A DNA stretch of 64,000 nt from Flavobacteriaceae bacterium (GCA_024643385.1 JAHEMZ010000002.1:12688-76687); one strand, 5' to 3'; shown: positions 1,363 to 18,719, numbered from the stretch's first letter. The notes: generated by a model from the sequence alone, not told the origin. Numbers and translations: made by a program.

Positions 1363-1405
1363 TGATTTATGTCATTGTTTTCGATATCTTTAATTAAGAT
1401 TTTTG
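1363..1405 (+). promoter_or_regulatory. FNR/CRP-like operator and promoter of ccoI
   Basis: TGATTTATGTCA (1363-1374) is one mismatch from the reverse complement of the site before ccoS. It fits the FNR-type half-site arrangement TGAT-N4-ATCA except for one base. Its centre (1368.5) lies 29.5 bp before a -7-like box GATTTTTG (1398-1405; consensus TAnnTTTG). The operator centre would therefore be near -41.5, the usual class II activator position. Confidence 0.6.
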
Positions 1406-1428
1406 AATTTAATTCAACTAAAAAGTCA

Positions 1429-3807
1429 ATGACCCACTGTTACCACTGCGGTGATTCCTGTGAGCGCCAAGAATTGCATTATGACGACAAAAGTTTTTGT
1501 TGTCAGGGATGTATCACGGTCTATGATATTCTCGACAAGAACAATTTAAATTATTATTACGAGCTGGAAAAGAATCCCGGTATTTCTCCTGTGGAAATAG
1601 CCGGAAAGTATGATTTTTTAGACAACAATAGCATCATTGGAAAGTTGTTGGAGTTTGATGATGGACGTACGCAGATCATTTCCTTCCTAATTCCAAGTAT
1701 TCACTGTTCTTCCTGTATTTGGGTATTAGAGAATTTACAAAAATTAAATAAAGGGATTCGTACTTCGCAAGTCGATTTTCCAAAGAAGACGGTTCGGATC
1801 ACTTTTGTTTCAGGAGAAATAACGCTGAAAGATTTGGTGATTTTACTAGCCAAATTAGGGTATGAGCCCTATATCTCCATGGAAAACATGGATAAAAAGA
1901 AACCCAGGATCAACCGTACCCTTATTTATCAATTAGGAATAGCAGGATTTGCCTTCGGTAATGTCATGTTTCTGTCATTTCCGGAGTATTTTCAGGTGCA
2001 GGAATTTTGGTTAGATCGGTTTAGTCCTTTGTTTCGATGGCTCATGTTTGCTTTTTCAGTGCCAGTTGTGTTTTACTCGGCAAAAGATTATTTTATCTCT
2101 GCCTTTAAAGGCCTTCGATCCCATATTTTAAATATAGACGTTCCCATTGCATTGGGAATTTCAGTTTTGTTTGTGCGAAGCACCTTGGATATCATCATGA
2201 ATTGGGGAACCGGTTTCTTTGACAGTCTTACGGGCTTAGTCTTCTTTTTATTGGTGGGGAAATATTTTCAGCAAAAAACTTACGCATATCTCTCCTTTGA
2301 AAGAGATTATAAATCGTATTTCCCTATCGCCATTACCCGAATTTCAAAAGATCAAAAAGAGGAACAAGTACCTGTTTATGAGATTGAACAAGGGGATCGA
2401 TTGATTATTCGGAATAAAGAATTACTTCCTGTAGATGCTATTTTATTGAAAGGGAACGCACTGATCGATTACAGTTTTGTAACCGGTGAGGCCGTTCCGG
2501 TGTATAAATTTTCAGGAGATAAATTATTCGCCGGGGGGCGACAAACAGGGGGAATTATAGAAGTTGAGGTCATCAAAAAAGTAGAACAAAGCTATTTGAC
2601 ACAACTTTGGAGCAACGAGGTTTTTTCAACTAACAAGCAGCATCTTTTTCAGTCGTTGACGAACAAAATCAGCAAATATTTTACAGTTACCATCCTTAGT
2701 ATCGCTTTATTGTCGGGTCTATTTTGGATGATTTTTGACCTTTCGAAGGTATTTCAGGTATTAACAGCTGTGTTGATCGTCGCTTGTCCATGCGCCATCG
2801 CATTGGCAGCACCCTTTACCTTAGGAAATTTATTGCGTTCCTTCGGAAAGCATAAATTTTATCTCAAAGAATCTTATATCATAGAGCAAATGGCTCAAAT
2901 CGATATCGTAGTATTTGACAAAACAGGTACGCTCACCACGCACGAAAATACCAGTATCTCTTATGAAGGCATTCCGTTGAGTCAAGAGGAGCTTATCTTG
3001 CTCACCAGTTCGCTAAGAGCTTCCAATCATCCTCTAAGCCGTGCATTGTATGATATTTTAGACAAAAACAATATTGCAACACTGGATAGTTTTGAAGAAC
3101 TAGCAGGAGAAGGAATTGTGGCCCGTCATAAGGCACAAAGTATTAAAATTGGTTCCTCCGCTTTTGTTTCACCTCCGCTGTCCGCAAAGGAATCGAATAG
3201 GACTTCCGTATATGTGAGCAGCAATGACGGCTATAGGGGTCGGTTTGTATTTCAGAATAAATACCGCGATGGAATTGTAGACGTATTTCAACAACTGGGC
3301 AAAGATAAGGAGCTTATTATTTTATCCGGTGATAACGACAGCGAAAGAGAAAAGTTAGAGCTAGTATTGCCAAAAGATTCCCAATTACTCTTTAATCAAA
3401 AGCCGAATGATAAGTTGGAATTTATCAAACAATTACAATCTGGCGGAAAAAAGGTAATGATGATAGGCGATGGATTAAATGATGCCGGAGCTTTGGCTCA
3501 GAGCGATATGGGAGTGTCGATATCGGAAAATGTAAATGTTTTTTCTCCAGCTTGTGATGGTATTTTAGACGCCTCCAGGTTTTACCAGCTTGCCGATTTT
3601 TTCAAACTTTCAAAGCAAGGAACTAAGATCATTAAATGGAGTTTTATATTGTCGTTTTTTTATAACGTAATCGGCTTGGGATTTGCAGTTTCGGGTTATT
3701 TATCACCTGTTGTCGCGGCTATTTTGATGCCTCTGAGCTCCATAAGTGTTGTGCTGTTTACAACAATTACAACACGTTATTACGAAAATCGTATTTTAGA
3801 AAAATGA
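1429..3807 (+). CDS. ccoI: Copper-type P1B ATPase for cbb3 oxidase assembly
   Basis: An inner-membrane heavy-metal P-type ATPase that exports copper for maturation of the cbb3 oxidase. The N-terminus has a cysteine-rich metal-binding segment (CYHCGDSC, FCCQGC). A heavy-metal-associated domain follows with C93-x-x-C96, then membrane helices, the CPC transport motif at residues 453-455, the phosphorylated aspartate D497 in DKTGT, and the GDGLND hinge. The start is set at the ATG at 1429 rather than 1369, because the family begins directly with the Cys-rich segment. At 792 residues it is full length. It leads the cco cluster, and an FNR-like site sits 55 bp upstream. Confidence 0.95.
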   Translation: MTHCYHCGDSCERQELHYDDKSFCCQGCITVYDILDKNNLNYYYELEKNPGISPVEIAGKYDFLDNNSIIGKLLEFDDGRTQIISFLIPSIHCSSCIWVLENLQKLNKGIRTSQVDFPKKTVRITFVSGEITLKDLVILLAKLGYEPYISMENMDKKKPRINRTLIYQLGIAGFAFGNVMFLSFPEYFQVQEFWLDRFSPLFRWLMFAFSVPVVFYSAKDYFISAFKGLRSHILNIDVPIALGISVLFVRSTLDIIMNWGTGFFDSLTGLVFFLLVGKYFQQKTYAYLSFERDYKSYFPIAITRISKDQKEEQVPVYEIEQGDRLIIRNKELLPVDAILLKGNALIDYSFVTGEAVPVYKFSGDKLFAGGRQTGGIIEVEVIKKVEQSYLTQLWSNEVFSTNKQHLFQSLTNKISKYFTVTILSIALLSGLFWMIFDLSKVFQVLTAVLIVACPCAIALAAPFTLGNLLRSFGKHKFYLKESYIIEQMAQIDIVVFDKTGTLTTHENTSISYEGIPLSQEELILLTSSLRASNHPLSRALYDILDKNNIATLDSFEELAGEGIVARHKAQSIKIGSSAFVSPPLSAKESNRTSVYVSSNDGYRGRFVFQNKYRDGIVDVFQQLGKDKELIILSGDNDSEREKLELVLPKDSQLLFNQKPNDKLEFIKQLQSGGKKVMMIGDGLNDAGALAQSDMGVSISENVNVFSPACDGILDASRFYQLADFFKLSKQGTKIIKWSFILSFFYNVIGLGFAVSGYLSPVVAAILMPLSSISVVLFTTITTRYYENRILEK

Positions 3808-3820
3808 AATAAGACCAAAC

Positions 3821-3863
3821 TGACATATATCATATTTTCAGTTCGGTGCTACTTATAATTTTA
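3821..3863 (+). promoter_or_regulatory. FNR/CRP-like operator and promoter of ccoS-ccoNO
   Basis: The near-palindrome TGACATATATCA (3821-3832) is followed, 29.5 bp from its centre, by the -7-like box TAATTTTA (3856-3863). This geometry is identical to that before ccoI. It indicates that ccoSNOQP has its own oxygen-responsive promoter even though ccoI ends only 73 bp upstream. Confidence 0.7.
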
Positions 3864-3880
3864 CGCATTAAATATTATTT

Positions 3881-4072
3881 ATGACAATCATTTACTTACT
3901 TCTAACCATCAGTGTCCTTGTAGCGGTGTTTTTTTTTATAGCCTTTGTCATCTCCGTGAGGGACGGGCAATATGATGACACTTATACGCCTTCCATACGA
4001 ATGTTGTTCGAAGATGAATTGATTGAAGAAGTTTCTTCTGAAAAACCAAAAACCAAAAACGATAACCAATAA
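3881..4072 (+). CDS. ccoS: Cytochrome oxidase maturation protein, cbb3-type
   Basis: A 63-residue single-pass membrane protein with a hydrophobic N-terminal helix (residues 3-25) and a short charged tail rich in E and K. Size, topology and place between ccoI and ccoN match CcoS, which is needed for cofactor insertion into the cbb3 oxidase. The stop codon is 3 bp before the ccoNO start, so translation is probably coupled. It is the first gene after the FNR-like promoter. Confidence 0.92.
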   Translation: MTIIYLLLTISVLVAVFFFIAFVISVRDGQYDDTYTPSIRMLFEDELIEEVSSEKPKTKNDNQ

Positions 4073-4075
4073 TTT

Positions 4076-6289
4076 ATGGAAGTAGAAAAGTTTTATTACG
4101 ACAATAAGATCGTTAAAAGTTTCCTCTATGCAACACTCTTTTGGGGAATCATAGGGATGTCTGTAGGTCTGACCCTGGCTTTTATGTTTATGTTTCCCAA
4201 TCTCACCGATGGAATTTCCTGGCTTAGTTTTGGTCGATTACGACCCTTACATACCAATGCGGTGATCTTCGCCTTTGTTGGGAATGCTATTTATGCAGGG
4301 GTTTATTATTCTTTGCAACGATTGCTTAAGGCGAGAATGTGGAGTGATCTATTAAGTAAATTTAATTTCTGGGGTTGGCAGCTTATTATTGTAGCGGCAG
4401 CAATTACCCTTCCTTTAGGTATTACTACATCCAAAGAATATGCGGAATTGGAATGGCCTATAGATATTGCGATCGCTTTAGTATGGGTGGCATTTGGTGC
4501 TAATATGATAGGCACCATTTTAAAGAGAAGGCAACGTCATCTCTATGTGGCGATCTGGTTTTACCTCGCCACTTTCGTAACCGTTGCTGTCTTACACATC
4601 GTGAACAGTATCGAATTACCCGTGAGCTTCCTCAAAAGTTATTCTGCCTACGCAGGGGTACAAGATGCCTTGGTACAATGGTGGTATGGACATAACGCAG
4701 TAGCGTTCTTTTTAACGACCCCGTTCTTAGGACTTATGTACTACTTCGTACCTAAAGCCGCGAACAGACCTGTATATTCTTATAAACTTTCCATTGTGCA
4801 CTTCTGGTCATTGATATTTATCTATATCTGGGCAGGCCCTCACCATTTGTTGTACACCGCTTTACCGGATTGGGCGCAAAGTTTAGGAGTTGCCTTTTCG
4901 GTCATGTTAATTGCACCTTCTTGGGGAGGGATGATCAATGGTTTATTAACCCTGAGAGGAGCATGGGATAAAGTTCGAACCAGTCCTGTATTGAAATTTA
5001 TGGTGGTCGCCATTACCGGATATGGTATGGCAACTTTTGAAGGACCTATGCTTTCGTTAAAGAATGTAAATGCCATCGCACACTTTAGCGATTGGATCAT
5101 TGCTCACGTGCATGTTGGGGCGTTAGCCTGGAACGGATTCCTCACCTTTGGTATGGTCTATTGGATGGTCCCCAGATTGTTTAAAACAACGCTGTGGTCA
5201 AATAAGTTGGCGAATGCCCATTTCTGGATTGGCACCTTGGGTATCATTATGTATGCATTACCCATGTACGTAGCCGGATTTGTACAAGCGTTCATGTGGA
5301 AACAATTTGAACCTGATGGAAGCCTTACCTATGGGAATTTCCTGGAAACCGTAAAAGAGATAATGCCGATGTATTGGATGCGCGCTATTGGAGGTACCTT
5401 ATATCTGATTGGAGCTCTTATATTGATCTATAATATCATTAAAACCATACGCAGCGGGCAAGATGTTACCGATGAATTAGCGGAAGCAGCTCCCCTTCAA
5501 AAAGTGACCCGTCACAGAACGGCCAAGGAAGGATATCATACATGGTTGGAAAGAAGACCGGTAAAACTTACCATTTACGCTACCATCGCAATTTTAATTG
5601 GTGGAATGGTGCAAATTATTCCTTCTTTAATGGTGGACGATTATGTGCCGAAGATAACCAGTGTAAAACCTTATTCTCCCTTAGAACTACAAGGGCGAGA
5701 TATTTATATCAGAGAGGGTTGTAATAGCTGCCATTCTCAAATGATCCGTCCTTTTAGAAGTGAAGTGCAGCGATATGATTGGACCAACGACAAGCAATAC
5801 TCCAAATCCGGAGAATTTGTTTACGATCATCCTTTCCTTTGGGGTAGTAAACGAACAGGGCCCGATTTGCATCGCATAGGAGGGAAGTATAGTGATAACT
5901 GGCATTTCAATCACTTTTATGATCCTCAAACCGTATCAGAAGGTTCAATTATGCCCTCGTACCGATGGTTGATTAAAAATGAGTTAGATAAATCCTTAAC
6001 AGAGGCCAAGTTAAAAGCCATGGTATCCCTAGGAGTTCCTTATACCGAGGAGGATATAGCCAATGCTCAAGATTGGATGTCGGAACAAGGAACACAGATC
6101 GAACAGAATTTATTGAAAGATCCTGATTTTGTAAAAAGTTATGAAACCGACAAACAGGATGCCTTGCAGAAGGGAGAAGATTTTGTAGAGATGCGCAACC
6201 GGGAAGTAGTAGCACTGATAGCTTATTTGCAGCGCTTAGGTACCGATATAAAAGTGAAGTCTAACGATGACCTAGGAAGTCAGCAATAA
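4076..6289 (+). CDS. ccoN/ccoO: Fused cbb3 cytochrome oxidase subunits I and II (CcoN-CcoO)
   Basis: The catalytic oxygen-reducing core of cbb3 oxidase in the inner membrane. Residues about 15-470 form the multi-pass haem-copper subunit I, with motifs such as WWYGHNAVAFF and HFSDWIIAHVHVGALAW that supply haem b and CuB histidines. A helix near residue 500 leads into the subunit II part, a periplasmic mono-haem cytochrome c with C549-NS-C552-H553 in EGCNSCHSQMIRPF. The two subunits are separate genes in Proteobacteria; the fusion is usual in Bacteroidota. At 737 residues it is full length with no frameshift. The ccoQ start follows 10 bp downstream. Confidence 0.96.
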   Translation: MEVEKFYYDNKIVKSFLYATLFWGIIGMSVGLTLAFMFMFPNLTDGISWLSFGRLRPLHTNAVIFAFVGNAIYAGVYYSLQRLLKARMWSDLLSKFNFWGWQLIIVAAAITLPLGITTSKEYAELEWPIDIAIALVWVAFGANMIGTILKRRQRHLYVAIWFYLATFVTVAVLHIVNSIELPVSFLKSYSAYAGVQDALVQWWYGHNAVAFFLTTPFLGLMYYFVPKAANRPVYSYKLSIVHFWSLIFIYIWAGPHHLLYTALPDWAQSLGVAFSVMLIAPSWGGMINGLLTLRGAWDKVRTSPVLKFMVVAITGYGMATFEGPMLSLKNVNAIAHFSDWIIAHVHVGALAWNGFLTFGMVYWMVPRLFKTTLWSNKLANAHFWIGTLGIIMYALPMYVAGFVQAFMWKQFEPDGSLTYGNFLETVKEIMPMYWMRAIGGTLYLIGALILIYNIIKTIRSGQDVTDELAEAAPLQKVTRHRTAKEGYHTWLERRPVKLTIYATIAILIGGMVQIIPSLMVDDYVPKITSVKPYSPLELQGRDIYIREGCNSCHSQMIRPFRSEVQRYDWTNDKQYSKSGEFVYDHPFLWGSKRTGPDLHRIGGKYSDNWHFNHFYDPQTVSEGSIMPSYRWLIKNELDKSLTEAKLKAMVSLGVPYTEEDIANAQDWMSEQGTQIEQNLLKDPDFVKSYETDKQDALQKGEDFVEMRNREVVALIAYLQRLGTDIKVKSNDDLGSQQ

Positions 6290-6299
6290 TGATCTTGTT

Positions 6300-6494
6300 A
6301 TGTTAAAATTTATAAAAGGTAATTTAGAGCAAATAGACGGGGTAGCGATCTACCCCATTATTTCCTTACTTATATTTTTTGTTTTCTTCTTATTGTTATT
6401 CTGGTGGGTATTCACTGCCAGTAAATCTCATATTGAAGAAGTGAGCAAAATACCGTTAGAAGAAGATAGTACCAACCACAATACCATTCTATGA
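6300..6494 (+). CDS. ccoQ: cbb3 oxidase small subunit
   Basis: A 64-residue protein with one transmembrane helix (about residues 17-39) followed by a short acidic cytoplasmic tail. This matches CcoQ/FixQ, an accessory subunit that stabilises the cbb3 complex. The stop codon overlaps the ccoP start by 4 bp (ATGA), indicating translational coupling. Confidence 0.88.
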   Translation: MLKFIKGNLEQIDGVAIYPIISLLIFFVFFLLLFWWVFTASKSHIEEVSKIPLEEDSTNHNTIL

Positions 6495-7441
6495 AATCAG
6501 TAGCATCCTATTTTAGAGTCATAGCCTTTATGGTCTTAGCCTTCCTGCTTATGGAAGTGTCCATAGATTCAGGTGATCAAATGGCCATTCAACAATTCCC
6601 GATCATTTGGGGAGTTCTCGCCATGCTTTTACTATTTGCCATCGCAGTAGAAATTATAGCAGCATCTCTGCGAAGTATCTTGTTTCGAAGTTTAACTGAA
6701 GAAGCTCGTCAACGATATGCAGCGGCTGAAAAAGAGCGTAATGCGCAAAAATTCTCAGGTATCCGAAATTGGTATAACAAAATGGCGGGTTCCAAACCCA
6801 TTGAAGAAGAAGGAGAAATTGTCCTGGATCACAATTACGACGGCATACGTGAATTGGACAATAAACTTCCGCCGTGGTGGGTTTACGGATTTTATATTAC
6901 GATTGTATTTGCAGCGGTTTATTTAGTGCGGTATCACATTTTTGACGGTACCAAACAGGGTAAAGAGTATGAAATTGAAATGGAGGAGGCTCGTATCGCC
7001 ATCGAAGAATACAAAAAAACCGCCAAAGATCTGGTTGATGTAAATTCAGTGGTGCTCCTTACAGAAACAGCCGATTTAGATGCCGGGAAGGTGATTTTTG
7101 ATCAATATTGTGTCGCCTGCCATAAACCTGATGGAGGCGGAGGTATTGGTCCCAATTTAGCCGACTCTTATTGGATCCTGGGCGGGGGTATCAAGAACGT
7201 ATTTAACACGATATCTGAGGGAGGACGCGATGGAAAAGGAATGGTTTCTTGGAAGAATGATTTAAAACCACTCGAAAGAGCACAAGTGGCCAGTTATGTG
7301 TTGAGCTTTCAAGGAACAACTCCAGCGGAACCAAAAGACGCCGAAGGAGAAATATGGCTTGACCCCGATGCTCCTAAACCAAATGAGCTTCCGGAAGCGG
7401 TCGTCGATTCAACCGAGGCCGTTGTCACTGGAATAGATTAA
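6491..7441 (+). CDS. ccoP: cbb3 oxidase cytochrome c subunit
   Basis: The electron-entry subunit of cbb3 oxidase. It has two N-terminal hydrophobic helices (about residues 10-60), a cytoplasmic linker, and a third membrane helix (about 130-150) preceded by the family signature DGIRELDNKLPPWW. A periplasmic cytochrome c domain follows with a single haem site C207-VA-C210-H211. Proteobacterial CcoP carries two haems and has one fewer N-terminal helix. The mono-haem form with an extra N-terminal hairpin is what I recall from Bacteroidota. The acidic, proline-rich tail (about 285-316) has no recognised domain. Confidence 0.94.
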   Translation: MKSVASYFRVIAFMVLAFLLMEVSIDSGDQMAIQQFPIIWGVLAMLLLFAIAVEIIAASLRSILFRSLTEEARQRYAAAEKERNAQKFSGIRNWYNKMAGSKPIEEEGEIVLDHNYDGIRELDNKLPPWWVYGFYITIVFAAVYLVRYHIFDGTKQGKEYEIEMEEARIAIEEYKKTAKDLVDVNSVVLLTETADLDAGKVIFDQYCVACHKPDGGGGIGPNLADSYWILGGGIKNVFNTISEGGRDGKGMVSWKNDLKPLERAQVASYVLSFQGTTPAEPKDAEGEIWLDPDAPKPNELPEAVVDSTEAVVTGID

Positions 7442-7446
7442 TTACC

Positions 7447-7467
7447 AAGCCCCCTTTTGGGGGCTTT
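7447..7467 (+). terminator. Hairpin between ccoP and ccoG (leaky terminator or stabiliser)
   Basis: AAGCCCCC-TTTT-GGGGGCTTT forms a strong G:C stem just after the ccoP stop, followed by only a short T run. It probably reduces readthrough into ccoG or protects the 3' end of the ccoSNOQP message. Confidence 0.6.
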
Positions 7468-7487
7468 CAACTTAGAAACTAATAGTT

Positions 7488-8909
7488 GTGGAAACACCGG
7501 AAGAAGAAATTTTCAGAGACAGTATCGCCACCATTAACAAAGAAGGTAAGCGCGCTTGGATCTACCCAAAAAAACCGTCGGGTAAATTTTATAAATACCG
7601 GAAATTAATAAGCTATGTATTATTAACCATCTTATTTGTTTCTCCCTTTATTAAGGTAAATGGCAACCAATTTATTTTACTGAACGTTTTGGAACGACGC
7701 TTCAATTTCTTCGGATTTCCATTTTGGCCGCAAGATTTTTATTTGGTGGTAATTATGATGCTCATCGGGGTTGTTTTTGTCATTCTATTCACCGTTGCTT
7801 TTGGACGTCTTTTCTGTGGTTGGGTTTGTCCTCAAACGATATTCATGGAAATGGTTTTCCGGCGCATCGAATATTGGATCGAAGGAGATCGAGGGAAACA
7901 AATACGATTGGACAAACAAGCCTGGAATGCGGAAAAAATTAGAAAAAGATTTCTTAAATATTTGATCTTCTTTATCATTTCTTTTCTTATTGCGAATGTC
8001 TTTTTAGCGTATCTTATTGGAAGTGATCGGCTGTTGGAAGATATCACCGGCGGACCACTTGAAAACCTTAGTACCCTTATTTCATTATTGATCTTTACCG
8101 GGGTGTTCTATTTCATCTTTGCATGGTTTCGAGAACAGGTTTGTGTGATTGCTTGCCCTTATGGAAGATTACAAGGAGTGCTTCTGGATAATAAATCGAT
8201 CGTTGTGGCCTATGATCACAAGCGAGGCGAGAAAGAAGCGGGGAGAGCAAAGTTCAATAAAAAGGAGGATCGCAGTACCACCGGAAAAGGCGATTGTATT
8301 GATTGTTTTCAGTGTGTTCATGTATGTCCTACAGGGATAGACATTCGGAACGGAACCCAGCTGGAATGCGTAAATTGTACTGCCTGTATCGATGAATGTG
8401 ATCATATGATGGAGTCCGTGAATTTACCTAAAGGACTTATACGTTATGCCAGTGAAGATAATATAGCGAAAAAGGCAAAATTCGAATTTGGAGCTCGCTT
8501 AAAAGGATATACGGCCGTGTTGGTTATTTTATTAGGGGTATTCAGCGGAATGTTATTTTTAAGGAACGATGTTGAGGCCCGTGTTCTCCGCTTACCGGGA
8601 CAACTATATGAACATAAGGATAATGATGTCATCAGTAATGTGTATACCTACAAATTGGTGAACAAAACAAGTCAGGATGTCGAGGATGTCCATCTTGAGC
8701 TAATCTCGCATGAAGGAACTATAAAATTGGTCACCAATGAACGGTTTACAGTTCCTAAACAAGGAATGGAAGAAGGCACGTTGTTTATTGAGATCAGTGC
8801 CAATAGCTTAACCGGTGACAAAGATAAGATCAAGATAGGAGTTTATAGTGGTGACAAGCTTATTGAATCTACGACGACCTCATTTCTGGGACCACGAACT
8901 TTTAAATAG
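7488..8909 (+). CDS. ccoG: cbb3 oxidase accessory iron-sulfur protein
   Basis: A polyferredoxin-like inner-membrane protein (FixG/RdxA family) required for cbb3 biogenesis, known elsewhere as a copper reductase in this pathway. It has several membrane helices, the cysteine motifs FCGWVCPQ and CVIACPYG, and two 4Fe-4S ferredoxin motifs (CIDCFQCVHVCPTG, CVNCTACIDEC). A C-terminal Ig-like periplasmic domain (about residues 365-473) follows. The start is GTG at 7488, since no suitable in-frame ATG is nearby. It is separated from ccoP by a hairpin and followed closely by ccoH. Confidence 0.94.
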   Translation: METPEEEIFRDSIATINKEGKRAWIYPKKPSGKFYKYRKLISYVLLTILFVSPFIKVNGNQFILLNVLERRFNFFGFPFWPQDFYLVVIMMLIGVVFVILFTVAFGRLFCGWVCPQTIFMEMVFRRIEYWIEGDRGKQIRLDKQAWNAEKIRKRFLKYLIFFIISFLIANVFLAYLIGSDRLLEDITGGPLENLSTLISLLIFTGVFYFIFAWFREQVCVIACPYGRLQGVLLDNKSIVVAYDHKRGEKEAGRAKFNKKEDRSTTGKGDCIDCFQCVHVCPTGIDIRNGTQLECVNCTACIDECDHMMESVNLPKGLIRYASEDNIAKKAKFEFGARLKGYTAVLVILLGVFSGMLFLRNDVEARVLRLPGQLYEHKDNDVISNVYTYKLVNKTSQDVEDVHLELISHEGTIKLVTNERFTVPKQGMEEGTLFIEISANSLTGDKDKIKIGVYSGDKLIESTTTSFLGPRTFK

Positions 8910-8915
8910 CAGTTG

Positions 8916-9362
8916 ATGAAAATAAATTGGGGAACAGGAATAGTTATTGGAATGATCAGCTTTATGGCCTTCATTATGGTCTTGGTAATTACCATGATGA
9001 CCAATAAAGAATTTGATCACGACTTGGTTACCGAAGGATATTATGAAAAGGATTTGGTATATCAGAATGAAATTGACGCCGAAACAAATTCGGGTAACCT
9101 TTCCACAGCAATAACGGTGCATAAAACTGCCGAGGGATTGGAAATTAAGTTTCCGGAGGAGGTTTTAGGGAAAGTGGTTATCGGAAAAGTTGAATTGTAC
9201 CGTCCATCTAATCAAAACATGGATTTTCAAATGCCTCTTCTATTAAGCGACACTACATTTATCATCCCTGCCCAAAGATTAGTGGAAGGGCAGTGGAAAG
9301 TTACAGTAGTTTGGGAAATGGAGGGTCAAAAATATCTTTTCAAGAAACAAATGGAGTATTAA
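8916..9362 (+). CDS. ccoH: cbb3 assembly protein FixH/CcoH
   Basis: A single-pass membrane protein needed for stable assembly of the oxidase. The N-terminus MKINWGTGIVIGM leads into one helix (about residues 6-30), then a periplasmic beta-rich domain. The sequence after the helix, HDLVTEGYYEKDLVYQNEID, is the usual FixH signature. I choose ATG 8916 over the TTG one codon earlier. It lies 6 bp after ccoG and 1 bp before the next gene, in one operon. Its WGTG start recurs in the microprotein at 10107. Confidence 0.92.
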   Translation: MKINWGTGIVIGMISFMAFIMVLVITMMTNKEFDHDLVTEGYYEKDLVYQNEIDAETNSGNLSTAITVHKTAEGLEIKFPEEVLGKVVIGKVELYRPSNQNMDFQMPLLLSDTTFIIPAQRLVEGQWKVTVVWEMEGQKYLFKKQMEY

Positions 9363-9363
9363 G

Positions 9364-10095
9364 ATGTTAGTTACGGCGTTTATATTAGGTTTAATGGGAA
9401 GTTTTCACTGTGTTGGAATGTGTGGCCCTATTGCCTTTTTATTGCCGTTAGATCGCAGCAGTTCTTTTTTAAAATACAGTCAGCTTTTTTTATACCATAT
9501 AGGTAGATTAGCAACCTATTCCATTTTAGGGATTTTGTTTGGTCTTGTAGGTAAAGGTCTGTATCTATTTGGTTTTCAACAGCATTTATCTATAGCCATT
9601 GGGATCATGATGATAGTGATTGTTCTGTTGCCTGAGACTTTGTTGAAAAAATATACGATTTCAAAACCCATTTACCGATTGATCGCCAAAGTAAAATCAG
9701 CCTTAGGATCACAGCTGAAGAAACGTACACCGGATACATTTTTCACCATCGGATTTTTGAATGGATTTTTACCTTGCGGCTTGGTGTACATGGCCCTATT
9801 AGGCGCTGTTGGAGAAGCAAACGTTTGGCAGGGCAGTTTGTACATGATCTTGTTTGGAGTAGGTACCATTCCCCTAATGACCACAGCCATTTATCTGGGG
9901 AACTTTCTGAAAGGAGGAGTCCGTAGTCGAATTCGTAAGTTAATTCCTGTTTTTGTGGTGCTGGTGGGAGTATTGTTCATACTTCGTGGATTGGGACTTG
10001 GGATACCCTATGTATCACCCAAACCCGTAAATCAAGTGATAGATGCGACCTATGATTGCCCTACATCTATCGAGTTAGTAAAAGATAATAGTTAA
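9364..10095 (+). CDS. TauE/SafE-like (UreH-type) membrane transporter of the cco locus
   Basis: A six- to seven-helix inner-membrane protein of 243 residues. The opening GSFHCVGMCGPIAF motif, repeated in part as GFLNGFLPCGLVY near residue 135, is typical of the UreH-like branch of the sulfite exporter TauE/SafE superfamily. Members of that branch sit next to cbb3 genes and are thought to handle metals or assist cytochrome biogenesis; the substrate is not known from sequence. The conserved His-Cys-Met-Cys cluster could bind copper, which is an inference. It starts 1 bp after ccoH ends. Confidence 0.8.
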   Translation: MLVTAFILGLMGSFHCVGMCGPIAFLLPLDRSSSFLKYSQLFLYHIGRLATYSILGILFGLVGKGLYLFGFQQHLSIAIGIMMIVIVLLPETLLKKYTISKPIYRLIAKVKSALGSQLKKRTPDTFFTIGFLNGFLPCGLVYMALLGAVGEANVWQGSLYMILFGVGTIPLMTTAIYLGNFLKGGVRSRIRKLIPVFVVLVGVLFILRGLGLGIPYVSPKPVNQVIDATYDCPTSIELVKDNS

Positions 10096-10719: not shown

Positions 10720-11637
10720 ATGAAAAACTCCTTTTCGTATTTACTTTTATTTCTTTTGTGTTATCTGCAAGTGTTTTCCCAACAGGAATTACCAATGCAT
10801 ATGTCTGATGCAAAAATAATCCCGCTTGAGAATTCAATGAATAAGGAATTGCAAAAAGGATTGGAAAAAGAACTAATGGCAAATCCACTTTGGAGAAAAT
10901 TGATCAAAGAGAAAAAGATGGCTGTAGGGGTGGTGGATTTGAGTAATCCCGATCAAGTGAAATATGCCAAGGTCAATGGGAATTATATGATGTACGCGGC
11001 AAGCCTCCCGAAAATTGCAATTTTGTTGACGGCCATGGATGCCATTGAAAAAGGAGAGATCAAAGAGACAGCTGCCATAAAAAAGGATATGAGACTTATG
11101 ATCAGTAAGTCCGATAATCAAGCTTCTACGAGACTTATTGACCTTTTGGGATACGCAAGGATCGAAGCTGTGATGACAAATCCTCGGTATCAATTTTATA
11201 ACAAAAAATTAGGCGGGGGTCTATGGGTTGGAAAGCGTTACGGAAAAGGAGGTAAGACAAACAGAGAGCCACTAAAAAATCTCAGTCACGCTGCTTCCGT
11301 CAATCAGGTATGTAAGTATTATTATATGTTGGCTTTTGGGCAGTTGGTCAATGAGAAGCGGTCCAAGCAAATGCTCGATATTTTTGAGCATCCGGAGCTC
11401 CACCATAAATTTGTAAATACCTTGGAAAGAATTGCGCCGAACGCAAGATTGTTTAGAAAATCTGGATCATGGGAGTCCTATCATTCTGACTCCATTTTGG
11501 TTTGGGGAGAAGACCCTAATCGAAGATATATTCTGGTCGCTTTGATCGATGATCCTAGTGGCGAGCAAATTATTAGGAATCTGGTGGTTCCGGTTGAAAA
11601 AATATTAAAGAAACAACAATATATTACGGCAAATTAA
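10720..11637 (+). CDS. Exported class A beta-lactamase-fold serine hydrolase
   Basis: A secreted or periplasmic serine hydrolase (305 residues) with a signal peptide ending near residue 20 (LQVFS-QQ). The active-site triad of the penicillin-recognising fold is present: S95-LP-K98, S131-D-N133 and K247-S-G249. Class A beta-lactamases also need a glutamate on the omega loop, which I could not place with certainty, so a role as a cell-wall or peptide hydrolase is as likely as drug resistance. A stretch before the serine (VDLSNPDQVKYA) aligns with VLDMTDPEALRYSE in the protein at 14545-15804, so the two are paralogues. It is followed by its own terminator and then the nucleotide-transporter gene. 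Confidence 0.85.
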   Translation: MKNSFSYLLLFLLCYLQVFSQQELPMHMSDAKIIPLENSMNKELQKGLEKELMANPLWRKLIKEKKMAVGVVDLSNPDQVKYAKVNGNYMMYAASLPKIAILLTAMDAIEKGEIKETAAIKKDMRLMISKSDNQASTRLIDLLGYARIEAVMTNPRYQFYNKKLGGGLWVGKRYGKGGKTNREPLKNLSHAASVNQVCKYYYMLAFGQLVNEKRSKQMLDIFEHPELHHKFVNTLERIAPNARLFRKSGSWESYHSDSILVWGEDPNRRYILVALIDDPSGEQIIRNLVVPVEKILKKQQYITAN

Positions 11638-11670
11638 CGGTAACTGTTTTTATTGGAAATTATATAATGA

Positions 11671-11692
11671 GGAGATTTTAATCTCCTTTTTT
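11671..11692 (+). terminator. Intrinsic terminator after the serine hydrolase gene
   Basis: A GGAGATT / AATCTCC stem with a minimal loop is followed by a T-rich run. It separates the hydrolase from the transporter gene that starts at 11725. Confidence 0.7.
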
Positions 11693-11724
11693 ATTTCTTA
11701 AATTGTAAGATAAATTACGATCTC

Positions 11725-14544
11725 GTGATCATCAAAATTCTAAAAACATATTTATTAAATGTCTTTGACTTAAAGGAACATGAGATCAAGAAAACATTGC
11801 TGCTGCAACTGAATATTTTTTTACTTATCTCCACTCTTTTAATCGTTAAACCTACCATCAATTCTCTTTTCTTATCGGAATTGACATCAAATGCGCTACC
11901 GTTAGGTTATGTCCTTACTGCTTTGATCGCATTAATAGGTTCGTTCATGTACAATAAAGCCTTGGAGCGATTCCCATTGAATAAAATGATCGAGATGACC
12001 CTGATTTTCTCCATTTTAAGCTTAGTGTTGTTTGGTCTGGCTTTTCGATTTAATTTAGCACAGGGGTTCTTGTTATATATTCCTTATACCTGGGTTGCTA
12101 TATTCGGCCTACTCACCGCCTCACAATTTTGGATATTGGCAAACTTGGTCTATAATGCCAGAGACGCTAAAAGGGTTTTTGGATTTATTGGAGCAGGGGC
12201 GATTTCAGGCGGTATCTTTGGCGGTTATCTAACCTCGATTCTGGCCAATTTACTTACTGCAGAAGGCTTACTTTTTGTAGCCGCTTTTTTGCTTTCTTTC
12301 TGTTTACCCATTACTCGATACATTTGGAAGAGCGAGGTGGTGAAACTTAATATGTTTCAGGTGTCAAAACGAACACAACCAAAAACGGTCTCTCCCTTTA
12401 AGCTTATCAAGAAATCGAAATTGCTTTCACATATTGCCATTGTCATTGGGATTAGTGTTTTGGTAGCAAAATTAATTGATTATCAATATAGCGATTATGC
12501 ATCTCATTATTTTGACGATGCCGATGAACTGGCTTCTTTCTTTGGGTTTTGGTTTTCAACATTAAGTTTGATTTCATTACTGATTCAATTGTTTCTAACT
12601 CCCCGTGTGGTAGGAACCTTTGGTATAGGAAAATCACTACTTTGGATGCCGACAGGTATCTTAGCGGGTTCAGCACTGCTTCTTTTTATTCCTGAACTAT
12701 GGGTAGTATTAATGATTAAAATTACGGAGGGAAGCCTTAAGCAGTCAGTAAACAAGGCGGCAACCGAATTGTTGTCAATTCCCATCCCCATTGAAATAAA
12801 AAAACGAACGAAAACCTTTACCGATGTGGTAATAGACAGTATTGCAACCGGTCTGGCAGGGCTGCTATTATATCTTTTTATCAATGAACTAGATATTTCA
12901 TCTACGTTGGTGAGTCTTTTTGTCATCGCCCTCGTTCTGGTTTGGGTGATTTTCATTTTTAAACTTCGAAAGGAATATATCGTAGCATTTAAAAAATTGT
13001 TAGAAATAACGAGTGACAAAAAGGAAAAGCAACAAAGGATAGAGGTTCCCGCAACTTCAATCTTAAAAACAGTGAAGCACGTTTTAGAACAAGGATCGGT
13101 TAGTCAGGTAATTCATATGCTGAACAAAACACTAGAGGTAAAGGATGAACGGTTTTTCAATTCCATTAAGCCTTTATTGATGCACATCTCACCAGAAGTT
13201 CGCATTCTTGCCATACAGAATTTGTACTACCTAAGCTCGGAGAACCTGAGTGAGGATATGGAATTGCTTATACAGGATAGTGATCAGGAAGTAACAACGG
13301 CTGCCTTTCATTATTTGGCTAAACATTATCCGGGAGACACATTTGTACTCATTGACAAATACTTATATAGTTCTGATTTAACCATATCTAACGCGGCCTT
13401 GATCATGTTGTCGGAAGAGTTTCGAACTAAACCCAAGAAATTCCGCACTAATAGACTAGCCAGCGAAATACAAAAGACCATAGAAGGAATAAATGACCTC
13501 ACATCTCCAATCGATCGCAATAATAGAATAAAAGCAGTTTTAACTTCCATTGGGCAATCACGTCTGGAAAATTTTTATCCATTCCTACAGGAACAACTTC
13601 AATCCTCAGATTTAGCTATTCGAAATTCAGCTTTGAAAGGTGCAGCCACTACGCTTGATCGACAATTAATTGAAACCTTATTAAAACATATCATCATTAA
13701 AGATACCCGTCAAACAGTAATTGAAGGGCTTTATCAATACGGGGAACCTATTATAGACATTCTGTATCATGACATAAAAGAAGAAGTTATTTCTTCGGAA
13801 GAAGGGATGCATGCGATTTCGGTGATTGAAAGATTTGCTAATCAAAAGGCGGTTAACATATTGTTAAAGCTTATGGATGAAACGGATCACATGATAGTGA
13901 TAGCAGCTATTGATGCCTTAAAGCGTTTAAAATGGGCTGAAAATAATTTGGAAGTAAAGGATCGAATTATAGTTGATAAAGTATTGAACGAATGTCAAGT
14001 ATATCAAAATACGCTTGCGGTCATTCATTCTCAAATCGTGTTGCAACATAAGGCCATGAGTCATAGCGTGGAAAATCCGGAGTTAACTGAAGCAAGAAAC
14101 GGCTTAATGAATATTATGGAGCATCGATTGGACCGACAGCTTCACCGTATTTTTAAACTCTTAGGAATCAAATATCCGCCTGAAGACATTGATCCTATTT
14201 TTCAGAATATTGTATCCGGAGAAGAAGAACAACGGGTCAATGCCTTAGAATTTTTGGATAATATTTTACAGGCTCCTTTAAAACGTGAATTAATTCCGGT
14301 AGCAGAATCTCTTATCACAGGAACTATTACAGAAGACAATTTCAAAAACTTCAATTTAAAAATGCTGAGTGAGGTGGAATGCTATCATCTCCTGCTTAAA
14401 CAAAAAGATGTGAAATTGAAATTAGCGGTATTATATTTAATTGAACAGTCTCATAACCCAAAGTTTAAATCGCTCGTAGAATTTGCCTTAAAAGATTCAA
14501 ACGAAAAGATTCGGGATAGAGCTGAAAATATGCTTCACACCTAA
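11725..14544 (+). CDS. NTT/Tlc-like nucleotide transporter fused to HEAT repeats
   Basis: The N-terminal half (about residues 20-435) is a polytopic membrane region of about 12 helices. It has the signatures of the ATP/ADP translocase-like NTT family, e.g. ASQFWILANLVYNARDAKRVFGFIGAGA. NTT proteins exchange ATP, ADP or other nucleotides across the membrane. The C-terminal half (about 435-939) is soluble and built of repeated helical pairs of HEAT type, likely cytoplasmic and regulatory or binding. The start is GTG at 11725. Its stop codon directly abuts the stop of the convergent hydrolase gene (14544/14545). Transport direction and substrate cannot be told from sequence; the neighbouring exported ATP-grasp protein makes nucleotide export an attractive but unproven idea. 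Confidence 0.75.
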   Translation: MIIKILKTYLLNVFDLKEHEIKKTLLLQLNIFLLISTLLIVKPTINSLFLSELTSNALPLGYVLTALIALIGSFMYNKALERFPLNKMIEMTLIFSILSLVLFGLAFRFNLAQGFLLYIPYTWVAIFGLLTASQFWILANLVYNARDAKRVFGFIGAGAISGGIFGGYLTSILANLLTAEGLLFVAAFLLSFCLPITRYIWKSEVVKLNMFQVSKRTQPKTVSPFKLIKKSKLLSHIAIVIGISVLVAKLIDYQYSDYASHYFDDADELASFFGFWFSTLSLISLLIQLFLTPRVVGTFGIGKSLLWMPTGILAGSALLLFIPELWVVLMIKITEGSLKQSVNKAATELLSIPIPIEIKKRTKTFTDVVIDSIATGLAGLLLYLFINELDISSTLVSLFVIALVLVWVIFIFKLRKEYIVAFKKLLEITSDKKEKQQRIEVPATSILKTVKHVLEQGSVSQVIHMLNKTLEVKDERFFNSIKPLLMHISPEVRILAIQNLYYLSSENLSEDMELLIQDSDQEVTTAAFHYLAKHYPGDTFVLIDKYLYSSDLTISNAALIMLSEEFRTKPKKFRTNRLASEIQKTIEGINDLTSPIDRNNRIKAVLTSIGQSRLENFYPFLQEQLQSSDLAIRNSALKGAATTLDRQLIETLLKHIIIKDTRQTVIEGLYQYGEPIIDILYHDIKEEVISSEEGMHAISVIERFANQKAVNILLKLMDETDHMIVIAAIDALKRLKWAENNLEVKDRIIVDKVLNECQVYQNTLAVIHSQIVLQHKAMSHSVENPELTEARNGLMNIMEHRLDRQLHRIFKLLGIKYPPEDIDPIFQNIVSGEEEQRVNALEFLDNILQAPLKRELIPVAESLITGTITEDNFKNFNLKMLSEVECYHLLLKQKDVKLKLAVLYLIEQSHNPKFKSLVEFALKDSNEKIRDRAENMLHT

Positions 14545-15804
14545 TTACTTTCGAATGATTCTATCAATATTGGAAGCAAGCGCCATATGATCTGAAGCTG
14601 AATTTTTCCTAAGGACATTGCTCATCAATACCACCATATAGCAATAGTTGTCGGGATGCTCAATGATCGCTACTGAATTCATAAAGTTATTTACATTCCC
14701 CATGTATTTTCCACAAGCTTCCCCCTTAGTTTTATCACATTTGTAAAGACTTCCAGATTTAAAGTAAACGGCAGCATCTTTTAGACTCGAAGAGGCTGCA
14801 TAACGAATTCTTCTATCCGTCATATAGATAATGCGTTTCATCTCTAAACTAGACCTGCGATCGACAATGTTCCCTTGTTCCAGTTGAACCAAAAATTTCA
14901 TCACCCCTTTTGTTGTTCCTATACTCCCTCCTTTATCTCCTACATAGTTATTGGCCCCTGAAGTGAAAAAGCTCCCCAAGCGCCATTCATCGCTACTAAT
15001 TCCTAATTTTCTCAACGGAAGGTTCACAACATCATTGGCTAGATCGGTCAGCTCTTTTTTAGGTGTATTCCTGAAGTAATCGTCCGTCTCTTCTTGGGTC
15101 AAAGCAGGATACTTATCTCCAAAAGCAGCCATCAATAAAACTTCACGCCATAGAATACTGGCGGCCCCATTATTACTAACAGATACCATATGATCTGTCC
15201 ATTCGAAAAGGGAAAATTCGTCACTGGCTATGACAGGCCTCTTGGTTAGTTTTTTAGTCTCGATGTCATAAATGGGAATGGTATGAGAATCGGTCAAACC
15301 CCATTTCCCGGAGGTAACCCTTTTAGATTTTAATAAGGCGACCCGATCCTCATAGGAATTTGGATAAATGTTGGCCAATTGGGTGAATAATCCCGTCAGT
15401 ACGGCAAGTTTCCCCACGCTTCCGGGCTGGTAGCCTGCCAGAGGATTATACTCAGAGTATCTTAACGCTTCGGGATCTGTCATGTCCAATACCGAAATAG
15501 AGTAATGGCTGTCCAGATTTCGAAATAACGCAGAGATCTCTTTTTGAAAATCTTCGTTTATTTTTAGGAATTCAGAAAGACTATCCTCACTGTGATTCAA
15601 TAAATTCAACTGAATATCTCCCATAGCCTTCAATGCACCGGGAGGCAGGGCTTTCGGATCTTTTATTTCACCATTTTTTATCAACTCCAATCTTTTTAAT
15701 CTTTTGATGCCCGAATATTCATATCCGTCGATGGGATAATTGACTGCCGGGATAAAGGCATATACGAATAACAATAACATAAGTAAAGGGAAAATTTTAT
15801 TCAT
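14545..15804 (-). CDS. Exported beta-lactamase-fold serine hydrolase, coupled to the dikinase-like gene
   Basis: A 419-residue exported protein (hydrophobic N-terminus, residues 3-20) of the penicillin-recognising serine hydrolase fold. Motifs are S129-VG-K132, S210-N-N212 and K349-S-G351. It is longer than the paralogue at 10720 by an N-terminal helical extension and an insertion between the second and third motifs. The ATG overlaps the stop codon of the upstream dikinase-like gene by one base (TAATG), so the two are translated together. I see nothing that assigns it to antibiotic resistance; action on peptidoglycan, peptides or esters remains open. Confidence 0.8.
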   Translation of the reverse strand: MNKIFPLLMLLLFVYAFIPAVNYPIDGYEYSGIKRLKRLELIKNGEIKDPKALPPGALKAMGDIQLNLLNHSEDSLSEFLKINEDFQKEISALFRNLDSHYSISVLDMTDPEALRYSEYNPLAGYQPGSVGKLAVLTGLFTQLANIYPNSYEDRVALLKSKRVTSGKWGLTDSHTIPIYDIETKKLTKRPVIASDEFSLFEWTDHMVSVSNNGAASILWREVLLMAAFGDKYPALTQEETDDYFRNTPKKELTDLANDVVNLPLRKLGISSDEWRLGSFFTSGANNYVGDKGGSIGTTKGVMKFLVQLEQGNIVDRRSSLEMKRIIYMTDRRIRYAASSSLKDAAVYFKSGSLYKCDKTKGEACGKYMGNVNNFMNSVAIIEHPDNYCYMVVLMSNVLRKNSASDHMALASNIDRIIRK

Positions 15805-18719
15805 TACAGAGAGGTGTTAAGTGAAATACTTCGATTAATATCAACGCTTGGAGAAATCGACGCCAAGTAGTTTGAACTAAGTGCTTTTTTATTTTCCACA
15901 AAAGGGCGTACTTGAAATAACCATATGTCACCCTCTTTGAATCCTAATTCCACGTCGTAAGCACCTGTATAATCCGATTGCGAGGCCTTGGGCAGTAGTT
16001 CTCGGATTTGTTCAGCCAGGAGGCAGATCTTATGGATAGCTTCTTCCGTAAGGATCCTATGTTCGAAAGTCGCTGACTTCTTTAAGGTACCTCCTGTTTT
16101 AGGGAGAGCGTTGTACTTACTTTCTCGGGCAGGTGCAATAAGGTCGTAGGTCTCGTCCATCCGTATTAAATAAGTTTCTGCGATCTGACCGTCAACCGCT
16201 CCCCCGGCACCACGGCTGAAAGCGACGGTGAGATCGTTTTCTATGTTTGAACGGATGCCTTTTGTGATCAAGACGCCACTGTAATCTACATCCACCCCGG
16301 GTATTAATAAGATGGAAGGAAATACATTTTCTGGGTTGGATAGATATTTCTGCCTCCATTTGAAGCTTCTTTCCGTATAGGGAGATGCCCATACGTCTTT
16401 AATTCCTTTCCAAACATTTTCTGCCCCAGATACATTGAATAAAGTAAGATTTAACCCGGCGCCGGTAAAATCTTTTAAGTCTTCCATATTGGTATCACTT
16501 CGTAAAAATACCGGAATATCCCCAAGTGGCCCCCCAAGGGCAGCTTTGAATTTGTCCTGCAATTCTATCATAAATTCCTTTCGGAGTGGCATCACTTTAA
16601 TCGCAGCCCGCAATTCTTCCAGTTTGGCGATTTGAAAACTTTCAACATCATTTTCAGAAACCCCTTTGGTACGCATGTTTTCGGCTTCCATAAACATATC
16701 CGTTAGAAAACCCCAATAACTTGTATTCTTTTCCGGCATCCTTTGGTCCATATGATCTTTAAATATTCCAAATGGTATGACCAATCCCTCAACCACAAGA
16801 TCCGGAAATAATTTTTTCAATTGTCCCAGATTGGCTGCCTTTGGACCACATAAGCTTCCGGAGGACGACGCATCCACTTCCCGTAGATTTAAAACTTCTT
16901 TTAGATCAAGTCTAATTTTTTCAATGGGTACCGCAATTCTCTCCTCATTACGTTGTGCTTTTTTTTCGAATAATAATTTTTCCTCATCGGTCATATCCTT
17001 TTCCAATTTCATGATCACGGTCCCTTTGTTTGATACGGCATAAAAAACGTTTTGACCTTCAAATTTTTTAAGACTTATTAAATTCTCGGCGGATAGGGAT
17101 GCATTCGGGATGCCCAAATTTCTAGCCAGTAATTGTACATGGGAAACCATATTTCCTTCTTCTACGGTTGCAATTCCGGCAATCGGCTTTAAATCGGAGG
17201 GAGGGCGTTGGAAAATGTAGATTTTATTGGAATTAACCTCAACATTGTCGGGATTATCGGAAACAACGACCAATTCTCCAAAAGCATAGCCGGGATTCAG
17301 ACCACGGATACTTGTTGTATTTTGAAAATCAAACACTTCATTTTTTAAGTTTGCTTGGACGGCCAAAAAGTTACCTAATTCTGCCACCGATTCCCCAAAA
17401 GGCAACATGATCGATCCACGAACCTTATCATCAATGAACCCAAAACTCTTAGGTTCAAATGCCCCGTAGGTCGTAACGGTTTCTTGGTAATACGCTTTTA
17501 CCATGGAAGCACACCATTCTACTTGCCCGCGGGAGGTGTCCAAGAAATGAGTCAATTCCCCAAGACTCATTTCGGAGGTTGACGGGACGGTAAGTATCCC
17601 TTCAATTTCTTCCCACTCCCATAATTCAATATAACCGGCCCCTGCATTGGCCATTCCCAGATAATAGATCTTGTGTAACAGTTCTGAAACAGTTAAGGGA
17701 GTCCAATCCGGCGCCATCTTAAAGATGTATTCTTCCAATTTTAAGGATATATTCAGAAGTTTAATCCGTGCCAGAGGCTTTTTTATTGAAAGCAGGTTGC
17801 AACGAATTTCATAAAGCAGTTTTGCGCTTTCCCTGGTCACCTTTTCCGGGTTGCTAAAGTCAGTTTCTTGGGTATATTTTCTTATTGATTCACCTATTTC
17901 AGAACCTTTAAGCAAGGTATCCTTATTCATTAGGGTAGAGCCGTCAACGGGTTCGTAGAATTGACCCATCGTGACAATAAGCTCGTCAAGTTGTTGTATA
18001 AGATCGCTTGATAAATTGGATTGATTATTTAACTTGAATGATTTAACCATATCAATATCAGAAACTTCCGGTCGACCGTGAATCTTGATCCGGGCATTCA
18101 TAAAGCGAGGTTCGAGATCACTGATCGTTTTCGACTGACTGCGCATTAATTGCGACAAGTTACTATCGCCACTATGAGGAATATTCTTCAAAGACTCACG
18201 GATCAAATAGAATTTTTGAATGATCTCTTTGTCCTGAGCCAATAACCATTTATAAAATTCCTTTCCTGCTGTCTCTTCATCTTCTATTTGGAGTGCGCCA
18301 CGATAATATTGCCCCTTGTTTAGGATCCATCCATCATCCACATTGTATAAATATTTGCCTAATTCATACTGCTTCAATCGGGAATTATAAAATTCATTGT
18401 CCCAGAGATCCGCAGGGTCCGTAAAAGCCAAAATCTGACCGAAATAAAGATGATTCTTCTCTGCCATCTTTTTAACAATATCTTTATAGCGTGCATGCTG
18501 AAATCCGGGGCCAATCTCTTGAGGACAAGGATCTTTAGGATCGCGAATACTTCCATCGGTACAAAACCATCGAATATCCTTATACGGACCGCGAGGATCT
18601 TGTTTAAAAAGTTCAACTTGAGCCTTTAAGAAGTCGCTCGAATAAGGCTGAGCATAACTCACAGTATTGCAGAGAATAAGAAATAGGACCAAGGTTTTTT
18701 GTAGTGTAAACGGCTTCAT
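15804..18719 (-). CDS. Exported PEP-synthase/glucan-water-dikinase-like protein
   Basis: A 971-residue protein starting at the ATG at 18719, which gives a classical signal peptide (MKPFTLQKTLVLFLILCN...SYAQ). Residues about 25-440 are helical and unassigned. A swivelling phosphohistidine domain follows, with H527 in NMVSHVQLLARN. After it comes a complete ATP-grasp domain (about 640-950) with GPKAANLG, R740-SDTNMEDL...GAG, and a final DVELGF...WLFQVRPF. PEP synthase and pyruvate phosphate dikinase have the opposite order plus a PEP/pyruvate barrel, which is absent here. Phosphohistidine-then-ATP-grasp is the order of glucan water dikinases, which phosphorylate polysaccharides. An ATP enzyme with a signal peptide is odd, since the periplasm normally lacks ATP. 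Confidence 0.8.
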   Translation of the reverse strand: MKPFTLQKTLVLFLILCNTVSYAQPYSSDFLKAQVELFKQDPRGPYKDIRWFCTDGSIRDPKDPCPQEIGPGFQHARYKDIVKKMAEKNHLYFGQILAFTDPADLWDNEFYNSRLKQYELGKYLYNVDDGWILNKGQYYRGALQIEDEETAGKEFYKWLLAQDKEIIQKFYLIRESLKNIPHSGDSNLSQLMRSQSKTISDLEPRFMNARIKIHGRPEVSDIDMVKSFKLNNQSNLSSDLIQQLDELIVTMGQFYEPVDGSTLMNKDTLLKGSEIGESIRKYTQETDFSNPEKVTRESAKLLYEIRCNLLSIKKPLARIKLLNISLKLEEYIFKMAPDWTPLTVSELLHKIYYLGMANAGAGYIELWEWEEIEGILTVPSTSEMSLGELTHFLDTSRGQVEWCASMVKAYYQETVTTYGAFEPKSFGFIDDKVRGSIMLPFGESVAELGNFLAVQANLKNEVFDFQNTTSIRGLNPGYAFGELVVVSDNPDNVEVNSNKIYIFQRPPSDLKPIAGIATVEEGNMVSHVQLLARNLGIPNASLSAENLISLKKFEGQNVFYAVSNKGTVIMKLEKDMTDEEKLLFEKKAQRNEERIAVPIEKIRLDLKEVLNLREVDASSSGSLCGPKAANLGQLKKLFPDLVVEGLVIPFGIFKDHMDQRMPEKNTSYWGFLTDMFMEAENMRTKGVSENDVESFQIAKLEELRAAIKVMPLRKEFMIELQDKFKAALGGPLGDIPVFLRSDTNMEDLKDFTGAGLNLTLFNVSGAENVWKGIKDVWASPYTERSFKWRQKYLSNPENVFPSILLIPGVDVDYSGVLITKGIRSNIENDLTVAFSRGAGGAVDGQIAETYLIRMDETYDLIAPARESKYNALPKTGGTLKKSATFEHRILTEEAIHKICLLAEQIRELLPKASQSDYTGAYDVELGFKEGDIWLFQVRPFVENKKALSSNYLASISPSVDINRSISLNTSL

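Follow-up and report, generated by a model that had tools for sequence, protein, structure and literature searches.

A conserved four-gene block of Flavobacteriaceae combines an NTT-HEAT transporter gene with genes for a dikinase-like protein and two serine hydrolases that carry predicted export signals

Results

Organization of the four-gene block

We analyzed a 64,000-nucleotide stretch of DNA from a Flavobacteriaceae bacterium (GCA_024643385.1, JAHEMZ010000002.1:12688-76687), called here the window, which is part of a contig in an assembly of 2.68 Mb. Positions 10720-18719 hold a compact convergent block of four genes that code for a serine hydrolase (HydA), a membrane transporter with HEAT repeats (NTT-HEAT), a second serine hydrolase (HydB) and a dikinase-like protein (DIK) that is predicted to be exported (Table 1). 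An initial annotation of this DNA had proposed such a convergent block, and all four open reading frames (ORFs) were confirmed where it had placed them. The stop codons of NTT and HydB abut with zero spacer, and a TAATG overlap joins the reading frames of DIK and HydB. For DIK, 18719 is the best start, since translation from there yields a clean signal peptide and is consistent with the orthologues. A longer frame that reaches 18869 fits neither the signal peptide nor the orthologues and is unlikely to be in use.

Table 1. Coordinates of the genes of the block, of the DIK domains and of a second family of the same kind
Feature	Position	Strand	Description	Size or residues	Pfam
HydA	10720..11637	+	predicted exported SxxK serine hydrolase, class A beta-lactamase/DD-peptidase fold	305 amino acids	PF13354, E 3.9e-19
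NTT-HEAT	11725..14544	+	NTT/TLC-family membrane transporter domain, C-terminal HEAT repeats; GTG start	939 amino acids	
HydB	14545..15804	-	predicted exported SxxK serine hydrolase	419 amino acids	PF13354, E 3.9e-8
DIK	15804..18719	-	predicted exported dikinase-like protein: signal peptide, helical N domain, phosphohistidine swivel domain, C-terminal ATP-grasp	971 amino acids	
DIK N domain	17310..18647	-	all-helical; proposed acceptor-binding part	residues 25-470	
DIK swivel motif GNMVSHVQLLARNLG	17112..17156	-	predicted phospho-accepting His527	residues 522-536	
DIK ATP-grasp domain	15876..16853	-		residues 623-948	PPDK_N
Second His/ATP-grasp family loci	L018:892-3323; L015:933-3393; also L014, L016, L017		both sequences that were read retain the catalytic motifs		

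The block is conserved and co-inherited

The block is a conserved, co-inherited module that occurs in many Bacteroidota, mostly in marine Flavobacteriaceae. In a sample of 248 genomes drawn evenly from the window's phylum, full-length DIK is present in 11, the window's own genome among these. All four genes lie together at six of the ten other DIK loci of this sample, and a seventh locus has DIK, HydB and the tail of NTT at a contig end. Two further loci (L027 and L028) contain DIK, HydB and HydA with no adjacent NTT, and in genome G178 DIK stands alone at its locus (L025), with HydB and NTT orthologues elsewhere on the same contig. A scan of species genomes gave 379 DIK loci, and the order DIK+ HydB+ NTT- HydA- is kept in 64 of the best 80 of these, all of which come from records named Flavobacteriaceae, Flavobacteriales or their genera.

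Co-inheritance is evident in a family sample that represents 201 Flavobacteriaceae genera by one genome each, where full-length DIK, HydB, NTT of the subtype found in the block (island-type NTT) and HydA are present in the identical 39 genomes. The exceptions comprise one partial DIK-like match, one extra HydA and two weak NTT matches without HEAT repeats. A naive Fisher test on this co-occurrence gives p = 1.6e-42, a value that is descriptive since it takes as independent genomes that share ancestry. Because gene order is kept in 64/80 loci and the four families co-occur in 39/39 genomes, random adjacency of the four genes can be ruled out. Independent scattering of the families among relatives was not found, and their co-inheritance supports the earlier proposal that the four genes constitute one functional unit.

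The association is also kept where linkage has been lost. Specifically, NTT (G353), HydA (G385) or both NTT and HydA (G386) lie far from the rest of the block, and NTT is retained in all 10 tested genomes that have a broken or cut block. Island-type NTT is confined to the DIK-positive genomes of the sample, and in the phylum sample some NTT-family protein is present in 11/11 DIK genomes versus 9/237 genomes that lack DIK. We found no fifth conserved member in the flanks of about 10 kb at 91 loci, where the next commonest family occurs at 14. A defence or phage origin was not indicated by any informative PADLOC or PHROG match (PADLOC gave a generic HEAT match only), and a plasmid search gave no match. 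Note that in Maribacter arenosus (L030:15685-18051) a 788-amino-acid membrane-anchored ORF, which resembles a class A penicillin-binding protein by eye only, lies between HydB and NTT.

DIK has the features of an exported ATP/phosphohistidine enzyme

DIK looks like a genuine ATP/phosphohistidine enzyme, the assignment made by the initial annotation, as judged by a C-terminal PPDK_N match (E 1.6e-21) and by intact motifs; the Pfam match to the phosphoenolpyruvate (PEP)-utiliser (phosphohistidine) domain is sub-threshold. His527 is invariant (89/89), and the swivel motif around it aligns with the swivel domain of PEP synthase. In the ATP-grasp domain K627, R740, D922, E924, Q936 and R938 are invariant wherever a row covers the residue. 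This domain matches PEP synthase both by profile (8a8e, E 2.7e-30) and by fold, and also matches the PigC (E 1.2e-18) and RedH (E 7.6e-15) profiles. By fold, DIK comes closest to rifampin phosphotransferase (5hv1, E 6.9e-13), with only the ATP-grasp domain covered. A match to GWD1_pHisD (PF22973), the phosphohistidine family of plant alpha-glucan, water dikinase (GWD), is sub-threshold in 6 of 11 DIK members, with a best E of 0.012. The N domain is helical in an AlphaFold2 model built from 47 sequences (pLDDT 86.7), and for these ~450 residues Foldseek returned no PDB fold match at E <= 0.001 and Pfam returned nothing. We propose acceptor binding as the role of this domain.

Export of DIK and HydA, as had been proposed, and also of HydB is supported by predicted signal peptides in 78/80 DIK, 63/63 HydA and 79/79 HydB orthologues, called from a hydrophobic N-terminal segment by a simple hydrophobicity rule rather than by a trained predictor. 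Many of the DIK and HydA segments end in an SQ/AQ-type cleavage site. In addition, C53 and C65 of DIK are invariant (89/89) and, apart from C624 of DIK (conserved at 92%), near-universal cysteines are limited to one pair each in DIK and HydB. Such invariant pairs are as expected for proteins that would form disulphides in an oxidising compartment.

We also observed a second, shorter family of predicted exported His-domain/ATP-grasp proteins (625-631 amino acids), which adjoins a DUF4956 membrane protein in 5/5 loci. Its existence suggests a wider class of exported dikinases.

HydA and HydB are divergent SxxK hydrolases

HydA and HydB both carry the SxxK, SxN and K(S/T)G signature of the SxxK acyltransferase superfamily (PF13354). 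S95-K98, S131-N133 and K247-S248-G249 of HydA are invariant in 72 rows, as are S129-K132, S210-N212, K349-S350-G351, C356 and C364 of HydB in 89 rows, and HydB also has an N-terminal motif, YPIDGYxxTGIxRL. On these motifs and the predicted signal peptides, both proteins look exported and catalytically intact. They are remote homologues of each other (profile-profile E 1.4e-7), in agreement with the kinship that had been claimed for them. Neither is recognized as a class A beta-lactamase proper, the best curated-model score being 18.2 bits against a cut-off of 510, and a sequence search found no closely similar PDB chain for either.

These results bear on two alternative explanations of the block. 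One is that it is an antibiotic-inactivation island in which DIK would phosphorylate a rifamycin-like compound while the beta-lactamase-fold pair would hydrolyse drugs. We consider this very improbable even though rifampin phosphotransferase is the best fold match of DIK and beta-lactamases belong to PF13354, since that fold match is limited to the ATP-grasp domain, rifampin phosphotransferase (Rph) has the opposite domain order and is without such an N domain, the beta-lactamase profile matches are marginal and far under the cut-off, and there is no plasmid match.

The other explanation is envelope remodelling by ligation, where DIK would join molecules through a phosphorylated intermediate in a PigC/RedH-like manner and HydA and HydB would be cell-wall DD-peptidases or esterases. 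The domain order of PigC and RedH, with the ATP-grasp match at their N-terminus, is opposite to that of DIK, no peptidoglycan gene is conserved near the block, and the L030 insertion is a single case. Against this must be set the PigC and RedH profile matches of the ATP-grasp domain, the fact that SxxK/SxN/KSG enzymes are typical of peptidoglycan work, and the ORF inside the L030 block that by eye is penicillin-binding-protein-like. On balance we find ligation improbable.

NTT-HEAT is without three of four key charged residues of canonical ATP/ADP carriers

NTT-HEAT matches PF03219 (E 5.5e-6, 25.9 bits versus a cut-off of 21) and HEAT_2 (E 1e-12). A profile search also matched it to AtNTT1 (9j3j, E 1.7e-14), while phmmer with the NTT membrane part alone gave no match. 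In AtNTT1 the residues K155, E245, E385 and K527 matter for ADP/ATP binding or exchange (PMC3306366, PMC4256464), K527 being linked to the binding of ATP and K155 to that of ADP (PMC3306366). When 71 island NTT members were aligned to AtNTT1 through two solved carriers, these four positions were found to be Y/F (or a gap), A/S/G, D and T/G, respectively. The equivalents of K155, E245 and K527 are thus uncharged in all 71 members, and the E385 equivalent is the sole survivor, as Asp252. Because the first three of these charged residues are absent, canonical ATP/ADP exchange by NTT-HEAT is not supported, nor is the identification of this protein as an ATP/ADP carrier in the initial annotation. 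Other nucleotides or another charged cargo are possible.

NTT-HEAT proteins of the phylum that occur without DIK likewise mostly lack the charged residues, so this loss is a trait of the NTT-HEAT branch and not of the island. PMC5381601 describes NTT-HEAT as a widespread branch that ranges from cyanobacteria to Chlamydia and oomycetes, with a broad free-living distribution and an open function. One DIK-less Bacteroidota genome (G081:C3:270960-293927) has, inside 23 kb, two NTT-HEAT genes that are full and a third NTT that is split, so that NTT-HEAT proteins have other roles too.

A further explanation is the full version of the earlier proposal, in which NTT-HEAT would export ATP while taking in ADP or AMP, and so would fuel a periplasmic dikinase. 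The transporter is strictly co-inherited with a predicted exported ATP-dependent enzyme, its island type is found only in DIK-positive genomes, its fold matches an ATP/ADP carrier, and an NTT from a microsporidian can have other residues at three of the four positions (PMC4256464). However, the uncharged positions in 71/71 members include those tied to ATP and to ADP binding, and the NTT of two DIK genomes (G183 and G199) is not of the island type. We therefore regard ATP export as doubtful.

An NTT-family fold without the ATP/ADP exchange residues could instead be accounted for by capture through phosphorylation, which would also explain why one unit contains a kinase as well as two hydrolases. 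HydA and HydB would free a small molecule, DIK would phosphorylate it in the periplasm and NTT-HEAT would import the product, with ATP coming from leakage; periplasmic ATP in E. coli is reported as micromolar (PMC7432876). Nutrient-uptake genes (TonB/SusCD) are not conserved near the block, however, the price would be two high-energy bonds per molecule, and the substrate is hypothetical. This explanation is unlikely in our estimation.

Neighboring genes

Directly upstream of the block (window 1369-10095) are genes for a cation-transport P-type ATPase (perhaps for copper), fused CcoN/CcoO cytochrome oxidase subunits and accessory proteins, an ordinary set. A pullulanase-like alpha-glucan debranching enzyme with CBM48, alpha-amylase and pullulanase domains is encoded on the minus strand at window 56945-58933, 38 kb from the GWD-like DIK, with no evidence that links the two.

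Discussion

Our preferred reading, on which we are about evenly divided, is that the four proteins form a system for phosphotransfer (or activation) that is driven by ATP and works outside the cytoplasm. The location of the folded enzymes in the periplasm, the phosphotransfer chemistry and the order of the reactions would be as follows. DIK would be secreted, and in the periplasm its ATP-grasp domain would move the beta-phosphate of ATP onto His527 with release of AMP and phosphate. The swivelling His domain would then hand this phosphate to whatever acceptor the helical N domain holds, in the way that GWD phosphorylates starch. HydA and HydB, as enzymes of the serine peptidase/esterase type, may process the same molecule, whether it is exogenous or associated with the envelope, either before or after its phosphorylation. 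Finally, NTT-HEAT would carry a small charged reaction partner across the inner membrane, possibly ATP, ADP or AMP, although not by way of the canonical exchange residues.

Several points weigh against this phosphotransfer reading. Three of the four residues that are functional in AtNTT1 are gone from the island NTT. In addition, G183 and G199 have DIK, HydA and HydB without island-type NTT, and in a tree of NTT proteins (the placement of the short rows L127, L136 and L137 being disregarded) the NTT-HEAT of G199 clusters with the one from G195, a relative without DIK. Two distant lineages thus retain the three enzymes with predicted export signals without the island-type transporter. Localization is deduced from sequence, the periplasmic ATP pool in these bacteria and the acceptor, for which the initial annotation had named a glycan, peptidoglycan or a peptide, are assumptions of the model, and PPDK_N-type enzymes can also drive ligation instead of stable phosphorylation. 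A more specific version of the phosphotransfer reading, in which the block is a dedicated periplasmic phosphorylation kit with an NTT-family nucleotide supplier, a GWD-like exported dikinase and two hydrolases that act on the same polymer, appears unlikely to us. If true, it would be a bacterial counterpart of the phosphorylation that occurs in the eukaryotic secretory pathway, together with a nucleotide route into the periplasm.

Each component of the block falls in a known superfamily. We know of no system that matches the four-gene set, the strictness with which it is inherited together and the GWD-like architecture of an exported protein, and a published description of the set was not found in the open-access literature. 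The module suggests that an ATP-dependent reaction, so far undescribed, takes place outside the cytoplasm and, if histidine-mediated dikinase transfer does take place there, this would be a new chemistry among the few extracytoplasmic kinases. A review states the route of ATP into the Gram-negative periplasm as unknown (PMC7432876). The strict inheritance of NTT-HEAT with a predicted exported ATP-grasp enzyme, in genera such as Maribacter, Cellulophaga and Formosa, provides a concrete handle on this route as well as on the function of NTT-HEAT.

Comparison with known systems

DIK is closest in architecture to the plant enzymes GWD and phosphoglucan, water dikinase (PWD), with which it shares a phosphohistidine domain and, behind it, a nucleotide-binding (PPDK_N) domain at the C-terminus. 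GWD has the phosphohistidine domain first and the ATP-grasp domain second, and in DIK His527 likewise precedes the ATP-grasp domain. GWD is known to require its histidine (PMC12892837). DIK differs from these enzymes in that it is a bacterial protein with a predicted secretion signal and an unrelated 450-residue helical N domain and, unlike GWD/PWD, has no starch- or glucan-binding module, as Pfam scans detected no carbohydrate-binding family in it. PEP synthase, PPDK and rifampin phosphotransferase also share the ATP-grasp and swivelling His domains with DIK (fold E-values down to the 6.9e-13 given above), but these cytoplasmic enzymes have the opposite domain order with ATP-grasp first, and DIK contains neither a pyruvate/PEP barrel nor a rifampin domain.

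The island NTT has an NTT domain and C-terminal HEAT repeats in common with the NTT-HEAT fusion proteins treated by Major, Embley and Williams (2017, PMC5381601). It differs from them as a subtype that is present only with DIK in the sampled genomes, a context that is unmentioned in the passages of that paper available to us. Plastid and parasite ATP/ADP carriers such as AtNTT1 (9j3j) belong to the same transporter fold family, whereas the island NTT is without the K155, E245 and K527 equivalents and has an added HEAT domain. Lastly, HydA and HydB share the SxxK, SxN and K-S-G motifs and a signal peptide with the class A beta-lactamase/DD-peptidase superfamily, from which they are set apart as two paired divergent families that are found with DIK.

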